Shown piece by piece: positions 43,630-60,577 of a stretch of 64,000 nucleotides of DNA. Location: contig CAJJAV010000027.1 in NCBI GenBank assembly GCA_905182125.1, forward strand, positions 24,607 through 88,606, read 5' to 3'. Below the pieces are notes generated by a model. That model was given only the letters and a program-made list of their open reading frames with translations. It had not been told where the DNA came from and did no database searches. The DNA is from an uncultured Candidatus Poseidoniales archaeon (GTDB taxonomy: Archaea; Thermoplasmatota; Poseidoniia; Poseidoniales; Poseidoniaceae). Both the position numbers and the translations under genes were made by a program. Position 1 is the first letter of the stretch. Every line of letters begins with the position of its first letter.

Positions 43630-44672
43630 TTTTTCATAGCCTCCTTCAATGCATATTCAATGATTCGCTCATTTGGTAGAAATGGTTCGAGATCACTCAG
43701 CCCTAGCCCTTGTATTGCGGCATCGACCAATGATGGCTCATCGGTCGTACCCTCGGGGGCATACCACGTACCGGATTCGAGCATGGCTGCTAATGGCACC
43801 AAACCAACCAGTTCACTGCCAGTGGCAACGACACCATGGTCTGCTGCGATGCTTTTGCATGCTTCAAAGGCTACATGCATTGGGCACTGCGCTACATCGC
43901 GTAGGTTCATGGACACTTGACTGATTCCGTGTGATTCAAGGGTTACACCCATGCCCTGGACGAGTGGAAGCATACCGGGAAAGCGCATTTTCCTTCCATC
44001 TTCTTGCTTGATAAGGCGGCCAGTTGAGCGGACAAGAGAACCGACCATTTTGGAGACCTTTGCATCGGGTTCATCAATGGTCACATTGTAAGCAACAAGA
44101 ATTTCTCGAGCACCGAAGGTCAACCCTCCCGAGCGTGCGATAACTGCGTCCCACGTTCGTGGTCCAAAATCCGGGTAGCGAGTGGCAAATGAATGGATCG
44201 ATTCACCATCGGTTAATCTGGCTTCTAACCCCTCATATTGGCCCTTGCGTATCGTTGATAGGAGTGATTTTTCTTGATTCGTAGCCGATGCCCCATAGAG
44301 AAAGGTTGGAACCGAACACTCTGTTGCAACACGTTGAGCCAGATCCGTAGCCAATCGGGCACAATCAGCCATCGTTGTGCCATTTAATGGAATGAAGGGG
44401 CACACATCCACCGCTCCAAGGCGTGGGTGTTCGCCGGTATGGTCTCGCATATCGATTTCCTTAACCGCAGCTTGGACCAGCAAAAAGGCAGCCTCTGAGA
44501 CATCTTTCGGGTGCCCTGCAAGCGTAATGACTGTCCGATTATAATCTGCGTCAGGCTCAACACCCAACACAGCACATCCCTCGACACGAGAGGCAGCAGC
44601 AATAATTCGATTTATTTTCTCAAGGTCACGGCCCTCTGAGATGTTTGGGACGCATTCAACCGTTTCCTGCAT
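43626..44672 (-). CDS. ftcD: Glutamate formimidoyltransferase
   Basis: Transfers the formimino group of N-formimino-L-glutamate to tetrahydrofolate, giving glutamate. The family start VECVPNISEGRDLEKINRIIAAA is followed by LGVEPDADYNRTVITLAGHP and HTGEHPRLGAVDVCPFIPL, which carries the catalytic His region. At about 348 aa it is a single N-terminal FTCD unit, with both formiminotransferase subdomains. I chose MQETVECVPN; an ATG six codons upstream is possible. It lies about 50 bp downstream of PAN and overlaps fchA. With HutH, HutU and HutI elsewhere in the window it completes the route from histidine to glutamate. Confidence 0.93.
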   Translation of the reverse strand: MQETVECVPNISEGRDLEKINRIIAAASRVEGCAVLGVEPDADYNRTVITLAGHPKDVSEAAFLLVQAAVKEIDMRDHTGEHPRLGAVDVCPFIPLNGTTMADCARLATDLAQRVATECSVPTFLYGASATNQEKSLLSTIRKGQYEGLEARLTDGESIHSFATRYPDFGPRTWDAVIARSGGLTFGAREILVAYNVTIDEPDAKVSKMVGSLVRSTGRLIKQEDGRKMRFPGMLPLVQGMGVTLESHGISQVSMNLRDVAQCPMHVAFEACKSIAADHGVVATGSELVGLVPLAAMLESGTWYAPEGTTDEPSLVDAAIQGLGLSDLEPFLPNERIIEYALKEAMKK

Positions 44673-51505: not shown

Positions 51506-51553
51506 TGTGCTACAATACGAATGCTCAAGGATGGGGCGTGGTTTCGTGTGGTC

Positions 51554-52183
51554 ATGGGGGATGATTACACCGCGCTTAGGACTCACCTCGCTGAAGGAAT
51601 CCCCTCCGTTATTCCTCAACATCCAGGCACCGATTCCTCGGTCGACCATGCGCCTAAAAGAAGGCAAATTTTGACACCTGATGAGAAAAAATTAGCATTA
51701 CGCAACGCATTAAGGTACTTTCCAACAAACCAACACTCGATCCTAGCGCCCGAATTTGCTGAGGAATTGAATTCCTTTGGCCGAATCATCATGTGGCGAT
51801 ACCGTCCAACTGAGTATGAAATGAGAGCCCACCCGATCGATGCATATCCGGCGAAGAGCAAACATGCTGCCTCGGTCATGTTGATGATTCAGAACAATCT
51901 GGACCCGGCTGTTGCACAATTCCCCCATGAATTGATCACCTACGGGGGAAATGGTTCGGTGTTCCAAAATTGGGCTCAGTACCGACTCACCATGCATTAC
52001 CTCTCCAAGATGGATGATGAACAAACGTTGGTCATGTATTCTGGCCACCCAATGGGGCTTTTTCCTTCCCACTCAAACGCCCCACGTGTGGTCGTGACAA
52101 ACGGGATGATGATCCCGAGTGAATCGACACCTGAGAATTATGAACGGCTCAACGCCTTGGGGTCACTCAATACGGCCAAATGA
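51554..52183 (+). CDS. hutU: Urocanate hydratase, N-terminal part (frame disrupted)
   Basis: The first 209 residues of an animal-type (long) urocanase. It has KKLALRNALRYFP, LAPEFAEELNSFGRI, LMIQNNLDPAVAQFPHELITYGGNGSVFQNWAQYRL (NAD+ region) and LVMYSGHPMGLFPSHSNAPRVVVTNGM. The frame then ends LNALGSLNTAK-stop. In the -1 frame the same DNA reads LGVTQYGQMTAGS, which is the conserved continuation. One G is missing from a G run (GGGG where GGGGG would restore the frame), or a -1 ribosomal slip occurs there. The start is uncertain: the track Met is 11 codons upstream. Confidence 0.88.
   Translation: MGDDYTALRTHLAEGIPSVIPQHPGTDSSVDHAPKRRQILTPDEKKLALRNALRYFPTNQHSILAPEFAEELNSFGRIIMWRYRPTEYEMRAHPIDAYPAKSKHAASVMLMIQNNLDPAVAQFPHELITYGGNGSVFQNWAQYRLTMHYLSKMDDEQTLVMYSGHPMGLFPSHSNAPRVVVTNGMMIPSESTPENYERLNALGSLNTAK
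52159..52162 (+). other. GGGG run: frame-change point within hutU
   Basis: Upstream codons read GCC TTG GGG TCA (ALGS); homology requires GCC TTG GGG GTC ACT CAA TAC GGC CAA ATG (ALGVTQYGQM). A single extra G restores one ORF. A tRNA-Gly on GGG can also slip -1 and re-pair perfectly with GGG. The disruption is therefore placed to within the four Gs. Confidence 0.85.
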
Positions 52184-53589
52184 CGGCTGGGTCCTATATG
52201 TATATTGGCCCTCAAGGTATTGTTCACGGCACAACGATCACCCTGCTGAATGCCGCACGGAATCACTTAGGCCTCTCAGGCGACGTTGGTCTTGGTGGTG
52301 TGACGTTCGTCACCTCTGGACTTGGCGGCATGTCTGGCGCTCAAGCCAAAGCTGCTGTAATTGCCGGAGCCTCATGTATTGTTGCAGAATCCAACGCTCA
52401 CGCAGCTCATAAACGCCATCAACAAGGCTGGCTGAGTGAGGTTACGGACAACATCGACGTGGCCATTGACAGGATGGTCTATTGTGCGAAGAACAAGACC
52501 GCAATTTCGATCGGATACATTGGAAACATCGTTGATTTATGGGAACGTTTGGTCGAGCGGGAGGTACGCGTCGATATGGGTTCTGATCAAACCAGCCTTC
52601 ACAACCCCTACCAAGGTGGATATTTCCCCGCAGGCTACGCATACGAAGATGCTGCCACGATGTTGTCAGATGAACCGGAACGCTTTGCGAGTGAAGTACG
52701 TTCAACACTGAAGCGTCACGCACATGCCATCAACAGAATGTCATCGAATGGGATGTATTTCTGGGATTATGGCAACGCCTTTTTGTTGGAAGCAAGCCGG
52801 GCTGGTGCTGATGTCCTCAAGGATGATGGTTCATTTCGTTACCCCAGCTATGTCGAAGATATCATGGGCCCGATGTGCTTTGATTACGGATTTGGACCAT
52901 ACCGTTGGGTCTGTGCCTCTGGCGACCCACAGGATCTCAAGATCACCGACCGGATTGCCATGGATGTTCTCATTGGAATGATGGATTCTGCTCCGGTGGA
53001 AATCCAGCAACAAATGAAGGATAACATTCGTTGGATCAAAGAAGCGGGTGAGAATCAAATGGTTGTTGGTTCCCAAGCACGTATCCTCTATGCAGACGAT
53101 GAAGGCCGTCGGAAAATCGCCTCAGCCATGAACAAAGCGATCAGGTCAGGAGAACTCTCCGGGCCAATTATACTGGGCCGCGATCATCATGATGTTTCGG
53201 GCACAGACAGCCCTTACCGGGAAACTGCGAACATCCGCGACGGATCGATATGGACTGCCGATATGGCGGTTCAGAACTTCGTAGGGGATTCGTTTCGTGG
53301 TGCGACATGGGTCAGCCTCCACAATGGCGGCGGAGTCGGCTGGGGACAAGTCATCAACGGTGGGTTTGGCATGCTCCTCGACGGCAGCGATGAATGTGAG
53401 CGACGTTTGCAATCCATGCTGCACTGGGATGTAAACAACGGCGTTGCTCGAAGAGCATGGGCTCGGAACTCTGGGGCCAACTTTGCTATCAAGAGGGCTA
53501 TGGAGGCAGAACCACGCTTGAGCGTAACGCTTCCATTCTCAGCAACCGATGAAACAATCAATTCCGCTTTCCCACGAGGTGAACAATGA
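52180..53589 (+). CDS. hutU: Urocanate hydratase, C-terminal part (frame disrupted)
   Basis: The remaining 469 residues of urocanase, opening at the conserved Met of GQMTAGSYMYIGPQGIVHGT. Catalytic and NAD-binding signatures include VTSGLGGMSGAQAKAA, VDMGSDQTSLHNPYQGGYFPAG, FWDYGNAFLLEASRAGADV, RWVCASGDPQDL, SRDHHDVSGTDSP-like GRDHHDVSGTDSPYRETANI, and LHNGGGVGWGQVINGGFG. Together with the upstream piece the length is about 675 aa, matching the long urocanase type. The ATG overlaps the upstream stop (ATGA), so reinitiation could yield a two-chain enzyme. It converts urocanate to imidazolonepropionate. Its stop overlaps hutH (ATGA). Confidence 0.93.
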   Translation: MTAGSYMYIGPQGIVHGTTITLLNAARNHLGLSGDVGLGGVTFVTSGLGGMSGAQAKAAVIAGASCIVAESNAHAAHKRHQQGWLSEVTDNIDVAIDRMVYCAKNKTAISIGYIGNIVDLWERLVEREVRVDMGSDQTSLHNPYQGGYFPAGYAYEDAATMLSDEPERFASEVRSTLKRHAHAINRMSSNGMYFWDYGNAFLLEASRAGADVLKDDGSFRYPSYVEDIMGPMCFDYGFGPYRWVCASGDPQDLKITDRIAMDVLIGMMDSAPVEIQQQMKDNIRWIKEAGENQMVVGSQARILYADDEGRRKIASAMNKAIRSGELSGPIILGRDHHDVSGTDSPYRETANIRDGSIWTADMAVQNFVGDSFRGATWVSLHNGGGVGWGQVINGGFGMLLDGSDECERRLQSMLHWDVNNGVARRAWARNSGANFAIKRAMEAEPRLSVTLPFSATDETINSAFPRGEQ

Positions 53590-55139
53590 TGCGTCCAACA
53601 GTTTCTTTTGATGGTACAACCCTTACGCCTGCTGAAGTTGAACGGGTTGCCACAAATAACGCAGATGTTAAGATTTCAGAAGATGCGTGGCAGAAAGTGC
53701 ACGTTGCTCGGAATGTTGTCGACGGAATTCTCTCGAGAGGCGAGACCGTTTACGGCATCAATACGGGATTCGGGGCCTTGGTTCACCAACGAATATCTCC
53801 TGACGATTTGGCACAACTCCAAACCAACCTCGTACGCTCTCACGCAACGGGTTTGGGTGATGCAATGTCCCGATCCTCTGTTCGGGCAATGATGGCGGTC
53901 CGAATCAATTCTCTCGTCAAAGGTCACTCAGGTGTTCATCCGGATGTCCTTGAACAGTTGCTGAACTTCCTCAACAACGACATCATCCCTCATGTCCCGA
54001 GAATTGGCAGCCTCGGTGCCAGCGGCGATCTTGCGCCATTGTCCCACATGGCGCTCTCATTGCTCGGTGAAGGAATGGTGCTGGACGACCAGAATAATCC
54101 GATTCCAACCCAAGAAGCATTGGTTCAGCACGGCTTGATTGGCATCAAACTTCGGGCCAAAGATGGATTATCCCTCATCAATGGGACAAGTCAAATGCTG
54201 GCTTTCATGACTTTAGCTGAACGGCGCCTAAGCGCATTGCTGCCACTCGCTGATTTGATTTTGTGCACCTCAATGGAGGCACGTAAAGCGAGCGTCCAAC
54301 CATCGGATCAAAGGGTCCATGATGCTCGCCCCCACCCTGGACAAGGTTTGGTAGCACGACGGATACGGACAATGATGGAACATTCCCTCATCGTTGAATC
54401 TCATTCAGACTGTGAGCGCGTTCAGGATGCGTACTCCTTCCGATGTGCTCCGCAAGTGCACGGAGCCGTTCTCCAACGTTACAACGCCATGCTTGAGACA
54501 CTGGAGATTGAATTGAACAGTGCCACAGACAATCCTCTCATTTTCCCTGATCCGAAAAACCCTGGACCTCATGAAGTCATTTCTCAAGGAAATTTTCATG
54601 GCGAAGTAATTGCCTTAGCTGCGGATGCCATGTCCGCCGCTCTTTTTGAAATTGGTTCTATTTCTGAGCGTAGAATTGATCAGATGCTCGATCCAGCACG
54701 AAGTGAACTGCCACCGTTTCTGGCCCGAAATTCTGGACTTGAGTCCGGTTTGATGATCGTCCAGTACGTCGCAGGTGCCTCATTGGCTGAGTTACACGGT
54801 CATGCCACGCCACGCGCTGCATTTTCCACCACGACGTCGGCAGGGCAAGAAGATCACGTGAGTATGGGTGCTACGGCCGCATGGAATCTCCTTGAAGCAA
54901 CGCAACGCCTGTCTGAAGTGCTCGCCTGCGAACTCTTTGTTGCTTGCGAAGCGCTGGAGTTTGAATCCATCCCACCTGCTCCATATGTCCTCGCACTCAA
55001 GCAGCGCGTCCGTACCATTGCCAAACCGCTCGATGGCGACCGCAGTACCAGCAGAGAATTGATTGATATTGCGGTAGCACTCTCCGATGGTGCTTGGTTG
55101 GCTCGTATTGAAGCCGAACTCGGTCGAATTCCACGTTAA
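53586..55139 (+). CDS. hutH: Histidine ammonia-lyase
   Basis: A 517-aa enzyme of the MIO-cofactor aromatic ammonia-lyase family that deaminates histidine to urocanate. The self-cyclising Ala-Ser-Gly is in GSLGASGDLAPLSHMAL near residue 146. YGINTGFGALVHQRI near 57, LINGTSQMLAF, and QDAYSFRCAPQVHGA are active-site landmarks; NSATDNPLIFPD and FHGEVIALAADAMSAAL complete the pattern. The CxPQVxG and His-specific residues favour HAL over PAL/TAL. It overlaps hutU by ATGA, so translation is coupled. Its TAA overlaps the convergent DUF835 gene stop (TTAA). Confidence 0.95.
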   Translation: MMRPTVSFDGTTLTPAEVERVATNNADVKISEDAWQKVHVARNVVDGILSRGETVYGINTGFGALVHQRISPDDLAQLQTNLVRSHATGLGDAMSRSSVRAMMAVRINSLVKGHSGVHPDVLEQLLNFLNNDIIPHVPRIGSLGASGDLAPLSHMALSLLGEGMVLDDQNNPIPTQEALVQHGLIGIKLRAKDGLSLINGTSQMLAFMTLAERRLSALLPLADLILCTSMEARKASVQPSDQRVHDARPHPGQGLVARRIRTMMEHSLIVESHSDCERVQDAYSFRCAPQVHGAVLQRYNAMLETLEIELNSATDNPLIFPDPKNPGPHEVISQGNFHGEVIALAADAMSAALFEIGSISERRIDQMLDPARSELPPFLARNSGLESGLMIVQYVAGASLAELHGHATPRAAFSTTTSAGQEDHVSMGATAAWNLLEATQRLSEVLACELFVACEALEFESIPPAPYVLALKQRVRTIAKPLDGDRSTSRELIDIAVALSDGAWLARIEAELGRIPR

Positions 55140-59311: not shown

Positions 59312-60577
59312 TCAGTGATGGAATAAGGTTCCATTCAGCATGGTTGATTTGAACGGCGAGGTACCAGGTCGATTGCACCACGATTGCCATTGGCCACCAT
59401 CGACAATGTTCAGGTTCGCAGCAGCCCCGACCTGAATACGTCCATGGACCAGGCCATCGGGATGGATGGTTGTTTCAGATGGGTTTCGACTTGCAGCCAC
59501 AAGCGCGGCCAAGGGATCCACTTTGTTTCGATGGACGAGCAACGAGCCAATGAATGGCAAACTGAGGATGTTGCAATTGGGATTGAAATCTGTGGCAATC
59601 GACCATCGGTAGTTTTGTTCGACCGCTTCGTTGAACGAAGGCCAAGCCTCACCCATTGTGTAAGGCGTTCCAGGGAGGAATCCGGTATTGACACCAGCCT
59701 CTTCCATCCGTTGGCGACTTCCTGCCGGCGTGTAGTGGGCATGATCGGCCGTGACCACTCCTAATTCTGCTGCTAAATCACCTCCGCCTCCGTCAGAGAA
59801 TTCATCGATGTGAATTCTTTGGCGCAATCCACCCTTTTTCGATGCCATGAGAATTTCTTCACTTTCTTCTACCGTGAACCATCCTGGTTCACAAAAAACA
59901 TCTGCTGCTTGGGCGTATCCTTGGTTCAAGATTTGAGGCAACTGGTCTGAAAGAATTTCTTCGACATACTGCGAACGATCTTTTCCTGGTGGTGTGTCGT
60001 GGGCACCGAGCCACGTGAGTTCCATTGTTGGCAGATGAGCAATCCCCTTGAGTTCATGTGCCACATCGAGAAGCTGCAATTCAGATTCGGTTGTTAAACC
60101 GTAACCGCTTTTCGCTTCAAGGTGGGTTGTTCCGTTTGACAATGCAGCCCGCATCCGTTGATACCCTAACTTGAGGAGGTCTTCCTTGGAGGATTGGGCT
60201 GTGGATCGAACAGTATGTTGGATGCCGCCGCCTGATGCTGCGATATCTTGGTACGACATACCTTGTAGTTTCATAGAAAGTTCATTCGAACGGTCGCCCG
60301 ACCAAATGAGGTGATTATGCCCATCAACCAGCCCCGGCACCACCGCATTGCCACCGACTGAAACAATGGTCGTATCTTCGTTTGATTGCTCAGGGCCACC
60401 GAAGTGCTCATGAAGTTCATTTGAATCTTCAATAGATGTAATGACACCGCCTTCCACAACAATCCCCTTTCCAGCAGGAGATGTTAGTGCTTCATAATCG
60501 GACATTGACGCTCCACTCAACGATCCTTGCCCACCGAGGTGTGCAAGAGGCCCGAGGTCGAGGAAAACGGTCCGCAT
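59312..60577 (-). CDS. hutI: Imidazolonepropionase
   Basis: A 421-aa metal-dependent amidohydrolase that opens 4-imidazolone-5-propionate to N-formimino-L-glutamate, the third step of histidine degradation. GLVDGHNHLIWSGDRSNEL carries the metal-binding HxH. LEAKSGYGLTTESEL is the HutI signature, and IHIDEFSDGGGGDLAAELGVVTADHAHY and IATDFNPNCN supply the other metal and substrate ligands. It is slightly longer than many HutI proteins because of an N-terminal region around residues 10-40. It is divergent from kae1, with 51 bp between starts. It is about 4 kb from hutUH and on the opposite strand. Confidence 0.95.
   Translation of the reverse strand: MRTVFLDLGPLAHLGGQGSLSGASMSDYEALTSPAGKGIVVEGGVITSIEDSNELHEHFGGPEQSNEDTTIVSVGGNAVVPGLVDGHNHLIWSGDRSNELSMKLQGMSYQDIAASGGGIQHTVRSTAQSSKEDLLKLGYQRMRAALSNGTTHLEAKSGYGLTTESELQLLDVAHELKGIAHLPTMELTWLGAHDTPPGKDRSQYVEEILSDQLPQILNQGYAQAADVFCEPGWFTVEESEEILMASKKGGLRQRIHIDEFSDGGGGDLAAELGVVTADHAHYTPAGSRQRMEEAGVNTGFLPGTPYTMGEAWPSFNEAVEQNYRWSIATDFNPNCNILSLPFIGSLLVHRNKVDPLAALVAASRNPSETTIHPDGLVHGRIQVGAAANLNIVDGGQWQSWCNRPGTSPFKSTMLNGTLFHH

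Follow-up and report, generated by a model that had tools for sequence, protein, structure and literature searches.

The hutU gene (urocanate hydratase) at 51554-53589 of a Poseidoniales (marine group II) MAG is read in two frames, and the break between them is most probably an indel of the consensus or assembly, as judged from the orthologous genes of relatives and from similar slips elsewhere in the same genome. The gene lies in a window of 64,000 nucleotides (contig C27, bases 24607-88606). The assembly comprises 1.85 Mb in 31 contigs and is 82% complete, and the named genomes closest to it are MAGs of the Poseidoniales (marine group II euryarchaea).

The two frames of hutU and its neighbours

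Base-level comparison with 109 loci of relatives showed that hutU is split by the net loss of one base near 52153-52163. A split caused by a one-base change had been proposed from the sequence alone, and this was confirmed: ORF1 stops at 52183, while the -1 frame runs to 53589. The features of the gene and of the histidine pathway genes in the window are as follows.

51554-52183, plus strand: hutU 5' part, frame 0, N-terminal domain (PF17391, E=5.7e-47)
52153-52163, plus strand: hutU missing-base interval, one base short compared with all relatives; takes in GGGG 52159-52162
52180-52183, plus strand: ATGA overlap of the ORF1 stop and the ORF2 Met; by-product of conserved Met-Thr codons (109/109 relatives)
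52162-53589, plus strand: hutU 3' part, -1 frame, Rossmann and C-terminal domains (PF01175, PF17392; TIGR01228, 333 bits)
53586-55139, plus strand: hutH, histidine ammonia-lyase, intact (TIGR01225, 566 bits, over the cut-off)
59312-60577, minus strand: hutI, imidazolonepropionase, intact (TIGR01224, 305.7 bits, over the cut-off; C27:83933-85072, that is, window 59327-60466)
43653-44102, minus strand: FTCD, formiminotransferase domain, within an intact 366-aa frame (PF02971, 129 bits; C27:68259-68708)

ORF1 may start at ATG 51554 or at an upstream, in-frame ATG at 51521, and it ends with NALGSLNTAK at an out-of-frame TGA (52181-52183). From 52159, the -1 frame reads GVTQYGQMTAGS and is open to the natural stop at 53587-53589. 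The Pfam domains keep the order of urocanases, with Urocanase_N (PF17391) in ORF1 and both Urocanase (PF01175) and Urocanase_C (PF17392) in ORF2, so the break falls at the junction of the N-terminal and Rossmann-like domains. Since the frame is broken in the assembly, the two halves score 83.7 and 333.2 against TIGR01228, each below the cut-off of 375. In domain order, in the length of the joined frame and in its invariant residues, the gene resembles the long form of urocanate hydratase (TIGR01228; PDB 6uek, 681 aa); unlike the known enzyme, its frame is interrupted by one base in the assembly.

The gene directly 3' of hutU, hutH, had been described as intact, in agreement with its score over the TIGR01225 cut-off. 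The remaining pathway genes of the window (hutH, hutI and FTCD, the last of which encodes the last step) are likewise intact.

Orthologous genes and the position of the missing base

The sequence-only reading had proposed a comparison with orthologous hutU genes, and in that comparison every one of them was unbroken. The frame continues upstream through the break point in all 53 relatives with a match, and the motif stands in a single frame at all 109 loci when these are read base by base; a split hutU frame was found in 0 of 53 genomes and at 0 of 109 loci. Where the gene is whole, the open frames of the relatives measure about 540-740 aa, and the matches in fragmented genomes, though partial, run upstream too. 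When the same species was sought in GTDB contigs, viral contigs and species genomes, nothing nearer than 83% identity in the urocanase protein was found. At the level of species, and on the sequences compared, this genome alone has the split; its nearest relative is 83% identical, a distance at which breaks within the same species are invisible.

Several flags raised among the relatives were rejected. In-frame TGA flags in G001 and G016 belong to frames that are open to a natural TGA stop, and the stops flagged in L017, L019 and L032 lie upstream of the real start. In one relative (G024, C62:730-2455), the segments of the hutU match that correspond to query residues 36 and 58 are separated by about 330 additional bases, a little beyond the break position, which may be a gap, an insertion or a misassembly.

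Apart from the break, hutU appears ordinary. None of the 213 residues that are invariant across the 109 relatives is changed in either half of the window urocanase. Of 267 nearly invariant columns, two carry a different residue (I to V and E to Q); both changes are conservative and common to three relatives. In both halves, the nearest relatives stand at a dN of 0.11-0.15 from this gene, similar to their distances from one another. These results support the earlier statement that the remainder of both ORFs is intact, and indicate that hutU either still functions or did so until very recently. A real and recent frameshift mutation that inactivated hutU in the strain, or in part of its population, is the main rival to a consensus error. 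The perfect conservation elsewhere in the gene would fit a very recent event, spontaneous mutation commonly removes a single base beside short runs of C and G, and many organisms can do without histidine degradation. The intact state of the other hut genes, however, counts against such a loss.

The sequence-only reading had placed the shift at the GGGG of 52159-52162, where five Gs would restore a single frame. The run is indeed present in the missing interval, but the shift is not pinned to it, because losses from neighbouring codons give the same string. Frame-aware alignment sets the shift at 52156, and the observed GCC-TTG-GGG-TC also results if the adjacent Ala and Leu codons, or the Gly codon at its third position, lose a base. 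At this site, one relative (L016) has GCCCTTGGGGTA and another (L004) has GCTTTGGGTGTC; within the LGV conserved among relatives, the third base of the Gly codon differs, and the preceding Leu codon varies as well. An identical string results whether the base is lost from a G run, the C run or the third base of Gly, so the lost base cannot be placed. Among the four Gly codons, GGG is used least often near the break (33/252), so a five-G original is not the likeliest. Runs of four Gs are common, with 98 in the 64-kb window.

Recoding and two-chain readings of the break

The G run had also been read as a possible -1 slippage site. Programmed -1 ribosomal frameshifting there would yield a full-length urocanase, and a slip on GGG would produce precisely the ALG-VTQ junction that is conserved. 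An established archaeal cellular case exists in fucA of Saccharolobus solfataricus (PMC8211752), in which, as in hutU here, two overlapping frames in a -1 relation jointly encode one enzyme. In fucA, which encodes an archaeal alpha-L-fucosidase, the shift comes with the heptamer A-AAA-AAT, rare codons and a putative stem-loop, and two strains have the break in common (PMC8211752), whereas hutU here has no heptamer, no notable structure and no relative that shares its break. The zero-frame codons at the frame change of hutU are GCC TTG GGG TCA, and no slippery heptamer of the form X-XXY-YYZ (as defined in PMC8211752) was found there. Both C-TTG-GGG and G-GGG-TCA fail to fit, so only one tRNA would re-pair well. 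A stimulatory RNA structure was sought downstream in folds without pseudoknots, and none better than in shuffled sequences was seen (z +1.07 for 100 nt and +0.22 for 70 nt).

Furthermore, the G run is not the sole possible site of the change, and the split occurs in none of the relatives. Programmed frameshifting would be a lineage-specific recoding, with the four-G form real and a -1 slip on GGG giving full-length urocanase without a classical heptamer or structure, which we consider highly improbable. Having neither a tandem heptamer nor a notable fold, and with the split private to this genome, the proposed slippage site did not hold up.

A two-chain urocanase, produced by stopping and restarting at the ATGA, had been suggested as well. 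The break does separate the Pfam N-terminal domain from the Rossmann-like one, and overlaps of the ATGA type are a usual mark of translational coupling. The overlap of stop and start at the conserved Met is present as described (52180-52183), but it proved uninformative. The conserved Met-Thr pair is encoded by ATG-ACN in 109/109 relatives, all of which have ATGA at the same place inside an unbroken gene, and in 64 of the 109 this ATGA is the first stop reached after a shift into that frame. The overlap is thus automatic, no start-stop overlap specific to the split gene was found among these relatives, and reinitiation loses its main clue. In addition, the last six residues of ORF1 (SLNTAK) are out of frame, and two chains are encoded in no relative. 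We regard a two-chain enzyme as scarcely credible. Altogether, both programmed frameshifting and a two-chain enzyme are very unlikely, with no positive support for either.

Frame slips elsewhere in the assembly

To survey frame slips, 592 kb of this genome were compared with the proteins of a nearly complete relative (G003), and candidates were re-aligned in a frame-aware manner. Besides hutU, this sample contained 19 slips of one or two bases in nine genes, often with several per gene. A motif shared by the slips was sought as a sign of genome-wide recoding and none was seen; the slips occur in both directions, at sequences unrelated to one another, which also argues against programmed frameshifting at hutU.

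On C27, outside the window, a UbiD-family decarboxylase gene (C27:2053-3335) carries three slips and an Rrp4-like exosome gene (C27:9502-10231) carries one. No second close copy of either exists in this genome, and congeneric relatives have both genes whole except where a contig end interrupts them. ATP synthase subunit A is encoded by a single gene (C10:341-2096), which shares 96% identity with its G003 counterpart and slips frame near the C-terminus, not far from the end of the contig. Also broken in this assembly is a PurP-family gene. With apparent frameshifts in ATP synthase subunit A and Rrp4, this genome is read most simply as one that contains consensus errors. In the reverse comparison, used as a control, about six slip-like genes were found in G003 as well, so that the excess here is moderate and the difference one of degree. 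Gene-fragmenting indels are a well-documented kind of error in long-read assemblies (PMC12007338), where single-base slips likewise split conserved genes at several places per assembly; the slips here are judged from the assembled sequence alone, and the platform may differ.

The hutU break is the same in character as these slips, and sequence error is its best reading. Of the four explanations offered earlier, an assembly or homopolymer error is the best supported, given the similar slips in other conserved, single-copy genes of the assembly. These slips also bear on inactivation by real mutation: the same type of slip is seen in ATP synthase subunit A and Rrp4, which are single-copy and presumably indispensable, and a null allele is unlikely. 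Under a consensus error, one base would have been dropped in or beside the GCC-TTG-GGG stretch of the consensus, and the real organism would degrade histidine with hutH, hutI, FTCD and an ordinary urocanase, a single chain of about 678 residues. In an assembly with slips even in genes that a cell can hardly spare, caution is advisable: before recoding or loss is proposed for an apparently split or frameshifted MAG gene, relatives and the other genes of the same assembly need to be consulted.

Several further slip candidates, on C9 and C11, were excluded as likely non-coding or contaminating stretches. On C11 (C11:1360-6136), a broken second copy of deoxyhypusine synthase lies with frame-broken neighbours. 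Since this gene is broken on C11 yet intact on C12 (C12:65228-66238), a relative may have contributed part of C11 as contamination.
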